Assembly: GCF_005405385.1 (NCBI RefSeq)
Contig: NZ_BJDY01000004.1
Span: forward strand, 248,001-312,000
DNA length: 64,000 nucleotides
Direction: 5' to 3'
From: Lactiplantibacillus mudanjiangensis
GTDB taxonomy: Bacteria > Bacillota > Bacilli > Lactobacillales > Lactobacillaceae
Shown here one piece after another: positions 16,691 through 24,779 of the stretch; position 1 is the first letter of the stretch; every line of letters begins with the position of its first letter. The notes under the pieces are model-generated. The model saw nothing but the letters and a program-made list of their open reading frames with translations, ran no database searches and was not told where the DNA came from. The position numbers and the translations under genes were made by a program.

Positions 16691-16730
16691 AGACCTATTA
16701 AGCAAGAATTAAACCAAAGGAGTGAACAAC

Positions 16731-18287
16731 TTGGCAAAAACGAACACTGCGGCTTTTGATTCAATCTTAGTATTGGATTTTGGGAGTCAATATAACCAAT
16801 TGATTACCCGCCGCATTCGTGATTTCGGTGTGTATTCAGAATTATTGCCGAATACGATTACCGCTGAAGAAATCAAAGCACGCCACCCGAAAGGGATTGT
16901 CTTTTCTGGTGGTCCGAATAGTGTTTACGATGATGGCGCCTTTCGGGTTGATCCAGAAATCTTTAAGTTGGGCTTACCAATTTTAGGGATTTGTTACGGG
17001 ATGCAACTGATGACTTATTCACTGGACGGTGGGAAAGTGGAATCAGCTGATAACCGTGAATATGGGAAGGCTGATATCCAAGTAACCAACGAAAATGCGG
17101 TCCTATTCAAGGATACGCCGCGTGAACAATCCGTTTGGATGAGTCATGGTGACTTGGTAACCCAAGCACCAGATGGTTTTGATGTTGTCGCAACGTCGAA
17201 GAACTGTCCAATCGCCGCCATTCAAAATGTTGACAAAAAAATGTATGGGATTCAATTCCATGCCGAAGTTCGGAATACCGACTTTGGTAATGACATTTTG
17301 CGGCACTTTGCGTTTGATGTTTGCCAAGCGGAAGCTAACTGGTCAATGGATGATTTCATTGATATGCAAATTGACAAGATTCGCGAAAAAGTTGGCGACA
17401 AAAAAGTCTTACTCGGCCTTTCTGGTGGGGTTGACTCAAGTGTTGTTGGGGTCTTATTGCACAAGGCGATTGGCTCACAATTAACCAGTATCTTCGTTGA
17501 TCATGGTTTGTTGCGTAAAGGTGAAGCTGATCAAGTCATGGCTAGTTTGGAAGGCAAGTTCGGCTTGAACATCATCAAAGTTGATGCTAAAGACCGTTTC
17601 TTGAGTAAATTAGCTGGCGTCAGTGATCCTGAAAAGAAACGTAAGATCATTGGTAACGAATTTATCCAAGTCTTCGATGCCGAAGCAACCAAGTTAAATG
17701 GGATGGAATTCTTAGCGCAAGGGACGTTGTATACCGACGTTATCGAAAGTGGGACTTCCACGGCGCAAACAATTAAATCTCATCATAACGTTGGTGGGTT
17801 GCCAGAAGACATGCAATTTAAGTTGATCGAACCATTGCGGACTTTGTTTAAAGATGAAGCGCGTGAATTGGGTGAAAAGCTAGGCATGCCTTCCGAACTC
17901 GTTTGGCGGCAACCATTCCCTGGTCCCGGTCTCGGGATTCGGGTGATTGGTGAAATTACTGAAGATAAGTTAGAAATCGTGCGCGATAGTGACTTCATCT
18001 TACGTGATGAAATCAAAAAAGCTGGCTTAGACCGCGAAATCTGGCAATACTTTACTGTCTTGCCAGGGATCAAGAGTGTCGGTGTCATGGGTGATGGTCG
18101 GACTTACGACTACACTGTCGGCATTCGGGCGGTCACCTCAATTGATGGGATGACAGCGGACTTTGCTCGCATTCCATGGGATGTCTTACAAAAGATTTCG
18201 GTACGGATCGTCAATGAAGTCGATCACGTTAACCGCATCGTGTATGACGTTACGAGTAAGCCACCTTCGACTATTGAATGGGAATAG
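16731..18287 (+). CDS. guaA: GMP synthase (glutamine-hydrolysing)
   Basis: 518 residues. Converts XMP to GMP with glutamine and ATP. The N-terminal class I amidotransferase domain has the catalytic cysteine in GICYGMQ and the His-x-Glu in FHAEV. The ATP-pyrophosphatase domain carries the P-loop [12 protein letters not shown], and the C-terminal dimerisation domain ends in the typical [11 protein letters not shown] 16731 is the best start: aaaggag lies eight bases upstream, whereas GTG 16722 touches the binding site. The 3' end of guaA is a known integration site for islands in several bacteria; here the downstream block is accessory in character, but I found no duplicated guaA end. Confidence 0.97.
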
Positions 18288-18425: not shown

Positions 18426-18675
18426 ATTGAAAAATTAAATTGATTATACAAATGTATTATGAATTTGGTGATCTTATATGATTGACTATTGCATATAAGT
18501 TTGCGTGAGTGGATAATCAGTAAGTGAAGTATTCCTCTGTTAACTTCAAAAATTTATACGATACGGGCGTGTGGATGGAGAATGTGTGCCAATTTTTTTG
18601 AAACATCGGAATGCTTTCTTTATATAATGGTTTTATCCTGGTAATAATTCAATTATAGAATAGAGGTTTTTGTTG
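18426..18675 (+). promoter_or_regulatory. AT-rich intergenic region with ATPase promoter and an inverted repeat
   Basis: This gap starts the AT-rich block. It holds a perfect 8-bp inverted repeat CTTATATG / CATATAAG (18473-18480 and 18492-18499) and a promoter-like TTGAAA (18598-18603) with TATAAT (18623-18628), 19 bp apart, 48 bp upstream of the ATPase ATG. No gene is seen. Confidence 0.55.
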
Positions 18676-20898
18676 ATGGATGAGATAAAAATTGACTTGT
18701 CAGAGCATCAATTTTTGGATGGAATTAGTGTGTTTAAGCAACCCGCAGTAGAAATTAAACATAAAAATTTTGTTTTTGCGAAGAATGGATCAGGTAAATC
18801 TACATTTGCGTCAATAGTTGATCAAGAACTTTCGAAAAAATTTGATGTTCGTATTTATAATGGATTCGATACTATGTTGGGAGAAAATGAGAATCTTAAT
18901 GCGTTTGCTTTATCGGTTAATGCAAATGCGAACGAAAAATTGATTGAAGAAAAGCAGAAGAGCCTTAATACACAAAATATAGAATTGAGTCGAGTTCTAT
19001 CAGAAATTGGCGAGTCTAGTGCTGATGATCAGGATAAGAAAAATCTGAGTAAGAGACTACAAGAGGCGAATAAACGGGTTGCTGAAAAACAAAAAGTGAT
19101 TGAGGATTTTTATACAGTATCGGCGGCAGAAATAAAAAATATGAGTGATCCGCAGATCTCTGGCACAGCATATAATAAAAATAATTTTAAAAATGAAATA
19201 CGTGTGGCTGCGAAATTGCAGGACGATGATATTTCTTTGCTTAAGGAGACGGTGAAGACAGATGAAAAGGTAGCTAAACGCATCACTTGGCAAGAACTGA
19301 ATCTAGCTGGTTACCTGAATAGTACTAATGATATTTTGGAAAGTAAAGTTGAAGAAAAAACACGAATTTTACGTTTTAATAACGATCAAGATAAAATTAA
19401 CTTTGCAGAGAGCGGTTTAAAAATTCATGAGCATAGGGAAGGGGAACTCTGCGTCTTTTGTGGAAATCCGATTTCAAAAGAAACTTTCGAGGAATTGGAA
19501 GCCTATTTTAGTGCAGATGAAGTGGAACAATTAAAGGAACGTATTGAACTTGGAAAAAAGAAAATTAGTAATTTGGTTGCTGATGTGCATAATATAAGCA
19601 ACGAGTCATCGGACTTTTACCCAGATTTTCGTACAAAAGCTGTTAGTCTTTGGGATCAAGTATCAGTGCAAAAACAGGAAGTTATACATTTTTGTGAGGT
19701 CCTTGAAAATTCATTAAGTGATAAAGAAAGAAATCTTTTTGATAAACAAGAACCTGTCTCTATCTCGGTTCCAGAAAATGTTGACGTTTCGGAATATAAC
19801 AGTTTAGTTGAAGAAAATAATGCGTTTGGAAAAGATCTAGATAAGGAAAAGAATGAAGCAAAAGTTAAGCTCCGAAAGAGTGCTATTAAAAGAATGCTTG
19901 ACGATTTTCACTTTGATGTAAAAAAGTCTGAATTAGGTAGCATGCAGGAGATACGAAATAATGTTCAAAAAGAAATTCATGAAAAAGAGCAGGAAAAAGC
20001 ATCGATTCAAAATGTAATTAAATCACTTGAGAATGAAATCGATGCTTTGAAGCCTAAGGCAGAGAAGCAGGCAATTAACCATATCAATCAAAAACTTAGT
20101 GGATCTGTGTCTTGGAAGCTAGATTATTACGAAGAAAGTGATGAGTCTGGTTATTATTGGGTTTCACAGAAGTGTGAGGACGGAAGAATTGCACATCGAG
20201 GAGTAAAGGAACTTTCTACAGGCGAAAAAAATATTATTGCTTTATTATATTTTCTAGAAAAATTAGAAGAAACAGGTGAGGCAAATGATAAATTGCCGAA
20301 AGTGATTTTATTTGATGACCCTATGAATTCAAATGATGCTGGAATGCAATATTTAATCATCACGGAGCTTCAAAAGCTTTATCAAGGAAAATTTAGCAAG
20401 CGATATAATCCTCAAAAAGATTATATTGTTATTATGACTCATAATGTTCATTTTTATCTTAATGTGCCACCTCATGGAGCATTTAAGGATGAGAATGGAA
20501 AGACCAAATATGATAAGAACAATTTTTACAGCATTAGACGAGGTCATTTTATTCAGATTGAAAATGAAAAGCAGGATTTCAAGACAAATTATGATGCTCT
20601 GTGGTCTGAACTTCAAGATTTATCCGAGAATAATTTAACTAATTCGATGCTTAACTCGATGAGAAGAATAATTGAAACATACATTGAGTTTACGGGAATT
20701 TCTCAAAACGATTTTTATAAAAACAACGAACAATATCTTAAATTATTTAATGTTAATTCACATTCTGCCATTGATAGTGTATCTGCTGAAGCGTTTACGG
20801 AAAGTTCGCAAGAATTAGTGGCTAGTTTTCATCAGATCTTTAAGGATAATAATGCTGAAGCACATTTTAAAAGTCATTGGAATGTAGAATCTAAGTAG
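18676..20898 (+). CDS. AAA_13 / RloC-like ATPase with zinc-hook CxxC (candidate anticodon nuclease)
   Basis: 740 residues, AT-rich. Walker A is AKNGSGKST (35-43); a long charged coiled-coil region (about 70-480) is interrupted near its middle by a zinc-hook-like CVFCGNP (Cys259, Cys262); the ABC signature ELSTGEKN follows near 512, Walker B VILFDDPMNS near 541 and the switch histidine in IMTHNVHF near 585. This is the AAA_13 layout shared by PrrC and RloC. In the C-terminal tail, Arg663, Glu667 and His696 are spaced much like the Arg-x3-Glu...His triad of PrrC, suggesting an anticodon nuclease; that is inference, because such residues also occur in nuclease-free relatives. ATG 18676 follows agagg. 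Confidence 0.7.
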   Translation: MDEIKIDLSEHQFLDGISVFKQPAVEIKHKNFVFAKNGSGKSTFASIVDQELSKKFDVRIYNGFDTMLGENENLNAFALSVNANANEKLIEEKQKSLNTQNIELSRVLSEIGESSADDQDKKNLSKRLQEANKRVAEKQKVIEDFYTVSAAEIKNMSDPQISGTAYNKNNFKNEIRVAAKLQDDDISLLKETVKTDEKVAKRITWQELNLAGYLNSTNDILESKVEEKTRILRFNNDQDKINFAESGLKIHEHREGELCVFCGNPISKETFEELEAYFSADEVEQLKERIELGKKKISNLVADVHNISNESSDFYPDFRTKAVSLWDQVSVQKQEVIHFCEVLENSLSDKERNLFDKQEPVSISVPENVDVSEYNSLVEENNAFGKDLDKEKNEAKVKLRKSAIKRMLDDFHFDVKKSELGSMQEIRNNVQKEIHEKEQEKASIQNVIKSLENEIDALKPKAEKQAINHINQKLSGSVSWKLDYYEESDESGYYWVSQKCEDGRIAHRGVKELSTGEKNIIALLYFLEKLEETGEANDKLPKVILFDDPMNSNDAGMQYLIITELQKLYQGKFSKRYNPQKDYIVIMTHNVHFYLNVPPHGAFKDENGKTKYDKNNFYSIRRGHFIQIENEKQDFKTNYDALWSELQDLSENNLTNSMLNSMRRIIETYIEFTGISQNDFYKNNEQYLKLFNVNSHSAIDSVSAEAFTESSQELVASFHQIFKDNNAEAHFKSHWNVESK

Positions 20899-20906
20899 CT
20901 TTGGTT

Positions 20907-20943
20907 AACGGCTTTCCGGATTCAATCTAGAAAGCCGTTTTTT
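20907..20943 (+). terminator. Terminator of the AAA_13 ATPase gene
   Basis: Perfect stem aacggctttc / gaaagccgtt with a 13-base loop and a six-T run, eight bases past the stop codon. It separates the ATPase from the nucleoid protein gene. Confidence 0.9.
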
Positions 20944-20979
20944 ACATGGAATAGTTGATAACCATGGAAGGAATAATTA

Positions 20980-21966
20980 ATGAGAATCTTAAATATTATT
21001 GATCATATCTTGGACAAAGATTCCGGCAACGTTGTGTTATCACAAAAAGAAATTCCTAAGGACAATCTTGAGATTTCAAAGTACGTTGAAAAAGTCATCG
21101 AGAAGGTTTGGAAAAGTGAGTATCTGGAACTTGATTTGCAACGAATCCCACTATTAGAACAATTCTGGAATAGTAGTGATGATTTTCAACAGATCACTGA
21201 AAAGTTTGCACTTGATTATTTTGACTCAATCAAAGTCCATGAAGAAATTCCCGGCGGTGACTTGCTGTTCTTTAACGTTGAACTGGATGATTTAAGCCGA
21301 GTTATTGGAATTGCGAAACTAGACTATACGCAACGGTATATCCACAATGTAGAGTATGACGATGATGTCTTGGTCAACAATATCGTCAAGAATAACAGCA
21401 TTCTACCGTCTCCCGGGCAAGGTGTTAAAAATGTGATTCTAATCGATAAAGAGAAAGTCAAGTTGCGTGAACAACAATACACTGGTGCTAGCGGTAAGTG
21501 GTTGATGTCCAAGGACTTTCTTCAAATAGCGGCAGTGCCTTCAAAAGTTTCCGCTGATGTTAAGCAAATCAAGAAATCTATTCAAAAAATTTCTGAAAAA
21601 TATGATGACGACGATTTTGCGGTAACGTCCACGACGCAACAAGCTATTCATGATAGCATCGAAAAAGATGGCGTCATTGATAATGATTTTATTGCCAATG
21701 TGGTGTTTGAGAATAAGGAAGAGGCCAAAGAAGAGTTCAAAGATCAACTGGCTAAAAAAGCGATTGAACCAGTAGTTACCGTGCCGAATGCCAATTATTT
21801 TGAAAAGAAATATGAACGCCAAAAGATCAAATTGGATAATGGGATTGAAATCAATGTACCCATTAGTTTGTTGAAGAATCGAGATGCGATTGAGTTTGAG
21901 ACCAATCCTGATGGTAGCACTTCAGTGGTGATTAAGAATGTTGGTAGTTTGAAGAGTAATTTTTAG
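20980..21966 (+). CDS. NdpA/YejK-like nucleoid-associated protein
   Basis: 328 residues. The profile is that of the 37-kDa nucleoid-associated family (NA37): an N-terminal segment opening with LNIIDHILDKDSGNVVLSQ, the mid-region FFNVELDDLSRVIGIAKLDY, and a charged C-terminal part ending in a basic/hydrophobic beta region. These proteins bind DNA or nucleoids; in firmicutes they often lie in mobile or defence neighbourhoods. ATG 20980 has ggaagga upstream. Base composition is less AT-rich than the ATPase before it, so the two may have arrived separately. Function here unproven. Confidence 0.78.
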   Translation: MRILNIIDHILDKDSGNVVLSQKEIPKDNLEISKYVEKVIEKVWKSEYLELDLQRIPLLEQFWNSSDDFQQITEKFALDYFDSIKVHEEIPGGDLLFFNVELDDLSRVIGIAKLDYTQRYIHNVEYDDDVLVNNIVKNNSILPSPGQGVKNVILIDKEKVKLREQQYTGASGKWLMSKDFLQIAAVPSKVSADVKQIKKSIQKISEKYDDDDFAVTSTTQQAIHDSIEKDGVIDNDFIANVVFENKEEAKEEFKDQLAKKAIEPVVTVPNANYFEKKYERQKIKLDNGIEINVPISLLKNRDAIEFETNPDGSTSVVIKNVGSLKSNF

Positions 21967-22055: not shown

Positions 22056-22472
22056 ATGAAAAAGGTATGGTTATCAGTAGCGGCAATGGCATTGTTAACA
22101 CCAATGGTCGCAGAAACACAAACAGCGCAAGCGGCTAGTTGGCACAATGGAACACCAAAAGCAATGCGGGGAAAGTATCAAGCAAAGAAACACAGTGCAG
22201 CGCAAGGCTTTGGCGATATGTATCATATTACCGCTAAGACCTATACTTACGATGCATCTGGAATGCCACAAGTTAAGGCGACTAAACTACGGTATAAGAA
22301 GATTAGTGCGCATACTTGGCGGTTGCAAGGTAAGGTCAAAACGAGTGCTGCCGTTCGGTTTAGTAAATTAGATGAAAAAATTTATTGTAAAAGTAAGAAG
22401 TTCGCGGCTACTGATTATGGTAGTAAGTTTAGCAAATTAAGTTGGGCAACGAAGGTTTCTAAGTTTAAATAA
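22056..22472 (+). CDS. Small secreted protein
   Basis: 138 residues with a clear Sec signal peptide: MKK, a hydrophobic core, and a cleavage site after QAA or AQA (about residue 27). The mature part is basic (pI well above 9 by eye) and begins SWHNGTPKAMRGKY, an opening found in small secreted proteins of lactobacilli. The rest is lysine- and tyrosine-rich beta-strand-like sequence. aaggggag precedes the ATG. No LPxTG anchor, transmembrane tail or enzyme motif is seen. Function unknown; a wall-associated or extracellular role is inferred. Confidence 0.75.
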   Translation: MKKVWLSVAAMALLTPMVAETQTAQAASWHNGTPKAMRGKYQAKKHSAAQGFGDMYHITAKTYTYDASGMPQVKATKLRYKKISAHTWRLQGKVKTSAAVRFSKLDEKIYCKSKKFAATDYGSKFSKLSWATKVSKFK

Positions 22473-22655: not shown

Positions 22656-24470
22656 TTGGATGAAACTAAATCAATTGAACCAGCAATCGATGTTAAACCA
22701 ATTGTGGATGTGGTTCCTTATAATGTTGATTATAAAAAAGCCCTAGAGGAAAAAAGTGGCGACGATGAACTAATTTTTGAGTATCCTACTGTTTATGTGA
22801 TTGCTGATAAGCAAGATAAAAAGAAAGACGCGGTCCCTCAGTTCACGGCTTATGTTGGTGAGACGAGTGACATCAGTCAACGTACGCGGCAACATTTAGA
22901 TAGTGATACTAAAATTCGGGATGATTGGCAACAGCTAAAGGACAGCGATAATGCTGAAATGATGGTTATTGGTGATCATTACTTCAATAAGTCGCTGACC
23001 TTAGATATTGAAAATCGACTGATGATGTACTTATTGGGTGTCGATCACATCAAACATTTGAATAACCGTCGTACAAATCCACAACGTAAGTATTTTATGT
23101 CAGATCAATTTGATCAAATATTTACGAGTGTTTGGTCAGAATTACGGAAGAAAAAGCCTGAGTTATTCCCAGTACAAAGTGATGTTGAAAGTTCAGCTAT
23201 TTTCAAAGCATCACCCTTTCACGCCTTAAATGAAAAACAACTCGAAGGTAAAAATAAGATTTTTAATCGTGTTGAACAAGTTTTAATAAATACGAAGCAA
23301 GTTGATAATCAAGAAGCGGCGGTTATTTTTATTGCGGGTCAAGCGGGAACTGGGAAAACTGTCTTGTTGAGTAATCTATTTAATGATTTAGTAAACAGTA
23401 ATTTAACTGGCGATAATGCGGTGAATTTATTAGTTAATCATGACCAGCAGTTAATTGTTTATAAACAGATTGCGCATAAATTAGGACTAGATCGTGATAA
23501 TGATGATGTGGTGTGTAAGCCAACACGTTTTATCAATGAACATCAAAAGCCAGGGGCTAGAAAAGCAGATGTCATTTTGGTTGATGAAGCGCATTTGTTA
23601 TGGACCCATGGTAAACAGTCTTATCGAGGTCAAAACCAACTACAAGATTTATTGAAATTAGCCAAAGTTGTGATTATCGTGTTCGATAAATATCAGATTC
23701 TGACGACGGATGAATATTTAGACGATGAGGAGATTAATCGATTAGAACGAGTGGCTTCGCGAACTGGTAATACCATTACGTTGAAAGATCAAGAGCGAAT
23801 GGATGCAAGTGTTGAGACAATCGATTGGCTACATGATTTTGCGATTAACCAGCAACTGGGATTGATTCCAGATGATGATCGATACGAATTAAAGGTTGCC
23901 CGAAATCCAGCTACCATGTATCAAAAGATTAAGGTATTGGATCAACAAAAAGGAAAGAATCCAGCTAGTCTGGCACGAATGTTGGCGACGTTTGATTGGA
24001 AATTCGTGAGCGCCAAACGACCAGATGGTGATCGCGACAAAACTTGGAATGTGACAGTGGGTGATTGGTCCTTGCCTTGGAACTTGCAATTGAAGGTGCC
24101 ACGTAAACAAAAAAAGAAGAACCAGACGTTAGCGTGGGCGGAACAGTCCCAAACCATTGATGAAATTGGTTCAACTTATACCATTCAAGGTTTTGACCTT
24201 AACTATGCAGGATTGATTATTGGACCATCGGTAACCTATCGGGATGGCAAGATTGTTTTCAATCCAAGTGCTAGTATGAATAAACGGGCAACGAATAAGC
24301 GAACCTGGAAGGGTGAGAAAATTGATGTTGCTAAAGAATTGTTACGTAACGAGTTAAATGTATTATTGACACGTGGTGTGCATGGCCTATTTATTTATGC
24401 AGTCGATGAAGAATTACAACAAGCTTTATTAGCTGCGGCTGGTACGACACATATTCTGGGGGAGAATTAG
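22656..24470 (+). CDS. GIY-YIG nuclease domain fused to DUF2075 (Schlafen-like) P-loop ATPase
   Basis: 604 residues. An N-terminal GIY-YIG-like nuclease domain (about 44-145) has VYVI (46-49), YVGETSD (66-72), basic RTRQH (76-80), the expected catalytic glutamate Glu119 in DIENRL and an asparagine in LNNRR. The DUF2075 ATPase/helicase part follows with Walker A GQAGTGKT (228-235), Walker B ILVDEAHLLW (about 307-316) and a late DEIGSTYTIQGFD helicase-type motif. Start is TTG 22656, ten bases after gaggggg. The stop codon is immediately followed by the ATG of a MazG-like gene, so the two are translationally coupled. A nucleic-acid-attacking defence role is inferred. Confidence 0.82.
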   Translation: MDETKSIEPAIDVKPIVDVVPYNVDYKKALEEKSGDDELIFEYPTVYVIADKQDKKKDAVPQFTAYVGETSDISQRTRQHLDSDTKIRDDWQQLKDSDNAEMMVIGDHYFNKSLTLDIENRLMMYLLGVDHIKHLNNRRTNPQRKYFMSDQFDQIFTSVWSELRKKKPELFPVQSDVESSAIFKASPFHALNEKQLEGKNKIFNRVEQVLINTKQVDNQEAAVIFIAGQAGTGKTVLLSNLFNDLVNSNLTGDNAVNLLVNHDQQLIVYKQIAHKLGLDRDNDDVVCKPTRFINEHQKPGARKADVILVDEAHLLWTHGKQSYRGQNQLQDLLKLAKVVIIVFDKYQILTTDEYLDDEEINRLERVASRTGNTITLKDQERMDASVETIDWLHDFAINQQLGLIPDDDRYELKVARNPATMYQKIKVLDQQKGKNPASLARMLATFDWKFVSAKRPDGDRDKTWNVTVGDWSLPWNLQLKVPRKQKKKNQTLAWAEQSQTIDEIGSTYTIQGFDLNYAGLIIGPSVTYRDGKIVFNPSASMNKRATNKRTWKGEKIDVAKELLRNELNVLLTRGVHGLFIYAVDEELQQALLAAAGTTHILGEN

Positions 24471-24779
24471 ATGAATTATCAAGATGTTGAACAAGCGTTA
24501 ATCGCATTTCGCGATAAAAAAGGTTGGCAAAAGTATCATAACTTGAAGGATTTAGCGGTGTCGTTGAACCTAGAAGCCAGTGAAGTGTTAGAAATTTTTC
24601 AATGGCAACCAAGTGATCATGAATTGAGCGACGATGAACGGCAACATTTAGAAGAAGAGTTAGCGGATACGTTGATTTATACGTTTTACATGTGTGAAAA
24701 ATTAGGTGTCAATCCGTTAGATATTGTGGCTAATAAGATGCAATTTAATAAATCACGGCATTGGAAAACTGAAGAATAA
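24471..24779 (+). CDS. MazG-like nucleotide pyrophosphohydrolase
   Basis: 102 residues, a single MazG/dCTP-pyrophosphatase-type helical domain. The metal-binding acidic pairs are seen in LNLEASEVLE (ExxE) and EEELADTLIY (ExxD). Such enzymes hydrolyse (d)NTPs or (p)ppGpp-like nucleotides to monophosphates. ATG 24471 directly follows the TAG of the GIY-YIG/DUF2075 gene with no gap, which implies coupled translation and a joint function. A strong terminator follows. Whether it depletes nucleotides during infection or cleans modified nucleotides is not decidable here. Confidence 0.88.
   Translation: MNYQDVEQALIAFRDKKGWQKYHNLKDLAVSLNLEASEVLEIFQWQPSDHELSDDERQHLEEELADTLIYTFYMCEKLGVNPLDIVANKMQFNKSRHWKTEE

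Follow-up and report, generated by a model that had tools for sequence, protein, structure and literature searches.

Nhi and AbiO are nuclease-helicase phage defence proteins. SauUSI, a type IV restriction enzyme, which has a PLDc-superfamily 2 (SF2) helicase-DUF3427 architecture and likewise joins a nuclease to an ATP-driven helicase in a single chain, cuts DNA containing 5-methylcytosine (m5C) and 5-hydroxymethylcytosine (hm5C) (PMC3874153). DCTPP1 (RS21-C6) hydrolyses deoxycytidine triphosphate (dCTP) and in vitro also 5-methyl, 5-formyl and 5-halogenated dCTP, and it serves as a house-cleaning enzyme in its own host (PMC7162842). Here, we describe a gene pair in a 64,000-nucleotide (nt) stretch of Lactiplantibacillus mudanjiangensis DNA (G000:C4:248001-312000, from a 3.29-Mb genome in 13 contigs; hereafter the window). 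The pair encodes a GIY-YIG nuclease fused to a superfamily 1 (SF1), Schlafen group 3 helicase (A; 604 amino acids (aa), 22656-24470, + strand, TTG start, frame intact) and a DCTPP1-type MazG-like pyrophosphohydrolase (B; 102 aa, 24471-24779, + strand, ATG start). The two genes are linked across genomes, and their genomic context makes it probable that the pair serves defence of some kind; that it forms a module whose hydrolase clears modified dCTP is a tentative reading, somewhat short of an even chance, which is based on analogy with described enzymes.

A matches the Pfam family PF09848 ('SLFN-g3_helicase'), which we take to be the family previously called DUF2075, with E 7e-90 and 302 bits against a cut-off of 24. 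Alignment, Pfam and Foldseek place the helicase domain at 23223-24467 (+ strand), with Walker A (GQAGTGKT) at residues 228-235 and Walker B (VDEAH) at residues 309-313. The best Foldseek matches of the AlphaFold2 model of A (pLDDT 85.9) were RecD, Upf1, Dna2 and, at rank 12, SLFN11, with E 1e-8 to 1e-10 and a TM score of only ~0.3. Judged by its sequence, A is an SF1 helicase of Schlafen group 3 with predicted helicase activity. The GIY-YIG domain (~residues 40-145; 22773-23090, + strand) is supported by invariant residues, by the predicted order of its elements and by Pfam matches in relatives. PF01541, which has a cut-off of 22.6 bits, stayed below threshold in A, scoring 19.0 bits, and passed it in three divergent relatives (26.2, 26.4 and 29.3 bits). 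Residues Y47, Y66, G68, R76, H80 and E119 were invariant in 25/25 aligned homologues, and we take them to represent the GIY-YIG catalytic pattern of two tyrosines, an arginine and a glutamate. Moreover, the N-terminal elements of the model follow the order strand-strand-helix-helix-strand-helix, which fits the GIY-YIG fold, the canonical order of its secondary-structure elements serving as the reference. We conclude that the N-terminal domain of A is of the GIY-YIG nuclease class and a predicted nuclease.

A resembles SauUSI in its single-chain combination of nuclease and ATP-driven helicase; however, its nuclease is of the GIY-YIG rather than the PLDc type, its helicase is SF1 rather than SF2, and the DUF3427 found at the C-terminus of SauUSI is absent. 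Pfam detected neither PLDc nor DUF3427 in A, and ResIII remained below threshold (18.6 against 22.5 bits), placing A outside the SauUSI family as defined by PLDc, SF2 and DUF3427. Dependence on modification has been shown for SauUSI and is hypothetical for A. In PADLOC, Nhi and AbiO match the N-terminal region of the A helicase (residues ~190-387; E 1e-11 and E 1e-9, respectively); these matches are partial, with the GIY-YIG domain and the MazG partner outside the matched part, and A is a non-member. PADLOC-DB 2.0 returned no strong full-length match to either protein, the match of A being partial (best 1e-11) and that of B weak (0.007). A belongs to the same helicase family as the Schlafen group 3 helicases (PF09848), which include the helicase half of human SLFN11, but differs from Schlafen proteins in having a GIY-YIG domain ahead of the helicase and in that Pfam detects no Schlafen core RNase.

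B matches the MazG-like family PF12643 in Pfam (E 1.2e-11) and, by profile, DCTPP1/RS21-C6 (E 2.4e-18). Its nearest solved structures by sequence are the archaeal pyrophosphatase AF1178 of A. fulgidus (4qgp), which is closer than DCTPP1, and then DCTPP1/RS21-C6. By structure, B matches mouse dCTPase (TM 0.87, rmsd 1.5 Å), including the 5-Me-dCMP entry 6sqw, as well as RS21-C6 with dm5CTP (2oig), and these matches exceed those to iMazG and YpjD. Residues W19, H23, E35, E38, W45, E63, D66, Y70, K89 and N93 were invariant in 21/21 sequences. Thus, in sequence and model B is a DCTPP1-type MazG with a predicted helical fold, a putative ExxE ... ExxD metal site and conserved Trp and His residues, and it shares with DCTPP1/RS21-C6 the fold, the acidic catalytic residues and several aromatic residues. 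It differs in being bacterial, in its length of 102 aa, in being tied to a nuclease-helicase and in that its substrate is a prediction: by analogy, this substrate is most likely of the dCTP class, chiefly 5-modified dCTP. The original prediction, which was made from the window sequence alone, had named a GIY-YIG plus DUF2075-type ATPase and a MazG enzyme, and the Pfam matches and the catalytic residues bear out both identities. In one relative (L006, G008:C29), an in-frame stop interrupts MazG close to the C-terminus, and the adjoining helicase has an open frame.

MazG has already been proposed to act in defence; what we did not find described among the papers listed is its pairing with a GIY-YIG helicase. 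DefensePredictor puts forward a predicted, as yet unvalidated system containing a MazG NTP pyrophosphohydrolase domain, and several of the domains that it highlights had previously been predicted in defence (PMC13092281); the partner genes of the MazG system are unnamed in the available portion of that text, so that identity with the A-B pair is neither claimed nor excluded. Among the literature matches listed, which covered few subscription journals, we found no description of a GIY-YIG helicase/MazG pair, in agreement with the original prediction that no system with this exact pair had been described. DUF2075 was not found there together with MazG, GIY-YIG or 'defense', the DUF2075 papers being unrelated by title. 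A BREX survey does not mention GIY or MazG (PMC12839542), and a restriction review does not mention GIY-YIG, MazG or Nudix (PMC3874153).

Open reading frame (ORF) coordinates and sequence place the TAG of the helicase gene at 24468-24470 and the ATG of the MazG gene at the very next base, 24471. A ribosome-binding-like GGGGGAG lies within the helicase gene, 6 nt upstream of this ATG (24458-24464, + strand). The abutment of stop and start had been noted correctly in the original prediction, in which the genes were, however, called translationally fused; a fusion of the helicase with MazG is ruled out because each gene has its own codon at the junction, a stop for the helicase and a separate start for MazG. 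A and B are two adjacent ORFs that are probably translated together, in an arrangement that would suit translational coupling. The abutting genes and the ribosome-binding-like site inside the first of them would also suit a B that is mainly regulatory or antitoxin-like and holds A inactive, with nucleotide catalysis incidental or used for signal removal; the co-divergence of A and B and the adjacency preserved through changes of gene order, described below, point the same way. However, the acidic catalytic positions of B are invariant in 21/21 sequences and 12/48 A genes have no B beside them, and we consider an antitoxin-like role distinctly improbable.

The co-conservation survey suggested in the original prediction was carried out on partly overlapping sets (relatives, 80 loci, 120 genomes and 335 genomes), and the Fisher tests reported here take no account of kinship. 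The set of 80 comprises the best 80 of at least 275 confirmed loci from one-per-species GTDB genomes and spans Lactobacillales, Staphylococcus, Corynebacterium, Lachnospiraceae, Alloscardovia and others. In 62/80 loci, MazG adjoined the helicase: in 54 it lay on the same strand within 300 nt, in 6 it was divergent from the helicase and in 2 (L070, L107) it lay beside a helicase broken into two frames. Thus, the 60 unbroken pairs comprise 34 with MazG downstream, 20 with MazG upstream and 6 with divergent genes. Among relatives, 23/30 full-length or nearly full-length helicase loci adjoined MazG (16 after, 7 before the helicase) and 25/35 helicase copies had a linked MazG, the 35 places, chosen by hand, representing the family of GIY-YIG length after exclusion of the rows of a ~400-aa paralogue and of two fragments and merging of two G027 rows. 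In the 335 order-level genomes, 36/48 helicases had an adjoining MazG and 12/48 did not. Moreover, helicase and MazG co-occurred in the 120 genomes (both 27, helicase alone 8, MazG alone 15, neither 70; Fisher p 1e-9, uncorrected for kinship). The trees of the 60 A/B pairs correlated with r 0.53, compared with 0.15 for the best of 2000 permutations, while MazG switched sides several times along the helicase tree. As a control, a GIY-YIG-less paralogue of ~400 aa, which is common in Lactobacillaceae (L002, L167-L186), had MazG within ~2 kb in 0/20 loci; this refutes the notion that MazG accompanies any DUF2075 helicase.

Islands collect unrelated genes, and in the 120 genomes MazG often occurs without a listed helicase (22/47 places), as would be expected if the adjacency arose by chance or by hitch-hiking within a defence island. 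However, 62/80 loci in three arrangements against 0/20 control loci, together with the co-occurrence in the 120 genomes and the correlated trees, rule out this extremely improbable explanation, because adjacency survives changes of gene order. Altogether, we conclude that the linkage of A with B is established and that selection holds the pair together in any layout, since linkage persists through the different layouts; MazG has further uses too.

MazG was also found beside much diverged helicases of the GIY-YIG type and Schlafen group 3 (L187:1781-3798, L188:4535-6630, L197:6039-9961 and L255:960-4861). Those of L187, L188 and L197 are 23-25% identical, and the MazG genes of L187 and L188 had at first looked like orphans; GIY-YIG was found by Pfam in L188 and L197 and as a motif by eye in L187. 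L197 and L255 hold an extra helicase of the same superfamily. Of six inspected MazG places without a listed helicase, two lay by divergent helicases and four did not; by eye, one of these four precedes a hisS-like gene. In a Microcystis phage record (L254:3846-8077), MazG lies between a TPR protein and a Schlafen group 3 helicase in which Pfam detects no GIY-YIG.

A is distributed as an accessory gene. Within the genus, 8/20 relatives carry a full-length copy. In 7/9 carriers, including the window, guaA and the helicase are on one contig, with the helicase 4-35 kb downstream in the same direction, which indicates an integration hotspot; guaA of the window lies at 16722-18287. The G+C content is 0.385 in the A gene and 0.356 in the B gene, compared with 0.421 in the window and 0.446 in guaA, in line with acquired DNA. 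Among the best 80 of the at least 275 confirmed loci, the closest named homologue of A is that of L. dongliensis (79% identity). Plasmids of L. fermentum, L. plantarum, L. salivarius, L. amylolyticus and F. sanfranciscensis carry relatives of A, and these five copies lie near type III-A CRISPR, DUF2357, restriction or methylase genes. Within the stretches examined, no MazG was found near the more distant copies on Paenibacillus and Lysinibacillus plasmids, nor near a related helicase without Pfam GIY-YIG on a Streptomyces plasmid. A megablast search with the 6.5-kb block gave no close match on plasmids. A Cas9-like ORF was seen by eye directly after L030. In the Lysinibacillus plasmid (L258), a GIY-YIG helicase lies ~2.3 kb before nucleotidyltransferase, E2/UBC and Mov34/MPN/PAD-1 genes, presumably a CBASS operon.

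We also compared PADLOC matches at E 1e-20 between neighbours of A and control genes. From 30 chosen loci of the 80, of which 29 were usable, 236 neighbour genes were eligible; the comparison used 141 of them from 18 loci, with genes of at least 1500 aa and incomplete ORFs excluded, and 140 control genes out of 20 arbitrary chromosomal stretches. There were 79 PADLOC models among the 141 neighbour genes and 33 among the 140 control genes, these totals counting models rather than genes, as several models may match one gene. Among the 25 families listed, those of the neighbours included type I/IV restriction, PDC-S07, PbeA, DrmA/DrmB, Avs2, GajB, DRT, PD-T4-3 and AbiEii, most of them matched by a single gene, and the GajB match may be a housekeeping UvrD-type helicase; those listed for the controls were mostly DpdF, Cas12-like, DndA, SspA, Csn2 and mad3. 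Thus, defence genes are over-represented around A in a comparison that is qualitative only. The accessory location and defence-gene surroundings asserted by the original prediction are supported by the plasmids and the neighbouring genes, and the enrichment in defence islands that it called for was found in this qualitative sense alone.

Among neighbour clusters present in at least 4/80 loci, with names assigned by eye, the PLDc-SF2 helicase-DUF3427 protein was the only one recognised as defence, and commoner clusters appeared to be housekeeping (ROK-type regulator 9, ABC transporter 8, RarA-like factor 8). The RarA-like gene, by eye a recombination factor, which flanks 8/80 loci (L062, L067, L068, L076, L081, L082, L046 and L091), would fit a role in accessory DNA repair and pool sanitation, in which A handles damaged or stalled DNA while B and an adjacent NUDIX enzyme clear damaged dNTPs from the pool; such a role would help lactic acid bacteria under oxidative stress. 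The RecD/Dna2-like SF1 helicase is also compatible with such a role, as is the house-cleaning function of MazG and MutT-type enzymes (PMC7162842, PMC10742078). However, the RarA loci come from six Levilactobacillus and two Companilactobacillus genomes; given this restriction to two genera, their recurrence is more simply, and probably, explained by a shared insertion site. Moreover, the sporadic, plasmid- or island-borne distribution (8/20 congeners, five plasmids) and the defence-type neighbours argue against accessory repair, which we regard as quite unlikely.

The PLDc-SF2 helicase-DUF3427 protein, whose architecture was determined by Pfam on a relative, lies near the pair in 7/80 loci. Five of these loci (L040, L058, L066, L073 and L092) gave long SauUSI-like alignments, and each of the five also has a NUDIX gene; the alignment was partial in L059, at a contig edge, and in L097 (568 aa, 33%, 2.2 kb off). 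In helicase-bearing genomes, the SauUSI-like gene lay within 5 kb of the helicase in 4/12 places (G010, G012, G071 and G098) compared with ~0.07 expected (binomial p 7e-7, uniform model). In G010 and G012, helicase, MazG, NUDIX and SauUSI-like genes follow each other in a single run, with the G012 contig ending inside the last of them, and the annotation of the L. plantarum plasmid lists, in order, a (deoxy)nucleoside triphosphate pyrophosphohydrolase, a DEAD helicase, a nucleotide pyrophosphohydrolase (MazG) and the GIY-YIG helicase. SauUSI relatives resemble A in having a small nucleotide pyrophosphohydrolase alongside: a NUDIX gene lies within 300 nt of the SauUSI-like gene in 30/38 places, and 30/31 such NUDIX genes adjoin a SauUSI-like enzyme. 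The SauUSI-type/NUDIX linkage is also seen in L193:10005-13338 and others, at times in divergent orientation. The NUDIX protein matches MutT (5x1x, 5e-30), the CTP pyrophosphohydrolase 3gwy, Orf135 (2rrk, 1.6e-14) and MutT2; the E. coli entry 2rrk has been catalogued as a 5-methyl-dCTP pyrophosphatase (PMC5389931). The enrichment of helicase and SauUSI is confined to close co-location: over whole genomes they did not co-occur, either in the 120 genomes (11/35 vs 23/85) or in the 335 (21/48 vs 100/287).

The DCTPP1-type B and the recurrent SauUSI-type enzyme with a NUDIX of its own lead us to favour clearing of modified dCTP over depletion, since two unrelated nuclease-helicases are each accompanied by a pyrophosphohydrolase, the two hydrolases being likewise unrelated and both plausibly cytosine-specific. 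The pair would be a mobile two-gene module directed at invaders and possibly triggered by modified cytosine, a proposal that we hold with less than even confidence. A, an ATP-driven SF1 helicase with a GIY-YIG nuclease, would engage incoming or replicating foreign DNA, translocate and cut. B, made from the same transcript, probably via translational coupling, would strip dCTP-class precursors, above all 5-modified dCTP, and would also deprive phages that use modified cytosine of modified precursors. In a self-protection form, which we judge rather unlikely, B would keep modified dCTP out of host DNA, and with it the mark that provokes the nuclease. The hydrolase would then stand in for the protective methyltransferase of restriction, self being kept unmarked rather than marked; this, too, is doubtful.

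The original prediction had instead expected a phage defence that is abortive or depletes nucleotides. On infection, B would destroy dCTP, phage replication would starve and A would cut DNA; or B would lower the nucleotides that restrain A, as nucleotides restrain GajA of Gabija. Defences based on dCTP deaminases and dGTPases are known kinds, and the accessory distribution and defence neighbours of the pair are compatible with depletion. In favour of depletion, DCTPP1, whose fold B shares, acts on canonical dCTP also (PMC7162842). However, Pfam recognised neither a sensor nor a switch domain in B, the role of DCTPP1 in its host is house-cleaning (PMC7162842), related stand-alone MazG genes such as L140 exist, and B is lacking at 18/80 loci; the SauUSI-type/NUDIX company points to modified-dCTP clearing. 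In total, we consider depletion unlikely.

Several observations weigh against the clearing of modified dCTP as well. Pfam recognised no modified-base-binding domain in A. There was no MazG nearby in 18/80 loci (in one of them, L108, the contig has just 54 nt past the helicase), so that MazG is not an obligatory partner; among the five plasmid copies, MazG accompanies two and is missing from three. MazG is found in 156 of the 335 genomes and the helicase in 48, besides the frequent occurrence of MazG without a listed helicase noted above. The NUDIX protein is nearer MutT than Orf135, making 8-oxo-dGTP an equally possible substrate, and the lack of genome-wide co-occurrence with SauUSI belongs here too. 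Finally, if A attacks m5C DNA, its carriers should avoid m5C methyltransferases (PF00145). For SauUSI-like carriers, the control, such avoidance was clear in the 335 genomes (39/121 vs 126/214, p 3e-6; odds ratio (OR) ~0.34 after rough stratification) and borderline in the 120 (6/34 vs 32/86, p 0.05). For A carriers, it was weak in the 335 genomes (16/48 vs 149/287, raw p 0.019; OR 0.47, p 0.046 when stratified by SauUSI), with p ~0.11 on stratification by a family split that was estimated, as unlisted genomes bear no label. Split by SauUSI, the counts were 2/21 vs 37/100 (p 0.019) in genomes with it and 14/27 vs 112/187 (p 0.53) in genomes without; in the 120 genomes, A carriers showed no avoidance (10/35 vs 28/85, p 0.67). 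In the 120 genomes, PF00145 occurred in 4/25 with helicase and MazG vs 34/95 (p 0.09), and helicases without MazG had the opposite trend (6/10 vs 28/85, p 0.16); among the helicase carriers of the 335 genomes, MazG adjacency had no influence (13/36 vs 3/12), and because the contrast was gone there it is not used as support.

If modified-dCTP clearing holds, two unrelated nuclease-helicases would each have gained a hydrolase for one nucleotide class, which would represent a general principle of self/non-self discrimination. Type IV enzymes destroy modified DNA, yet cells could salvage the nucleotides freed from such DNA. To our knowledge, how cells avoid building the mark into their own genome is hardly discussed. 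Phage kinases acting on 5-methyl- and 5-hydroxymethyl-dCMP have been reported (PMC10742078). On a more modest reading, a widespread, order-shuffled and persistently linked nuclease-helicase/MazG module of food and gut bacteria is a defence candidate.

Upstream of the pair, the window encodes an AAA_13 ATPase (18670-20898; PADLOC candidate PDC-S06, E 9e-247), which the original prediction had taken to be RloC-like, followed by an NA37-type nucleoid-associated protein, the two spanning 18670-21966. An NA37 gene also lies within ~3.2 kb or less of the helicase in G006 (L189), G014 (L191) and G018 (L196), and in the last of these it lies 58 nt past the helicase. With the window counted, 4/9 carriers have an NA37 gene near the helicase, and the NA37 protein may be a third partner of the pair. 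Between NA37 and the helicase, 22056-22472 encodes a small, secreted-looking protein of 138 aa with no Pfam match above cut-off, and L189 has a relative in the corresponding position.

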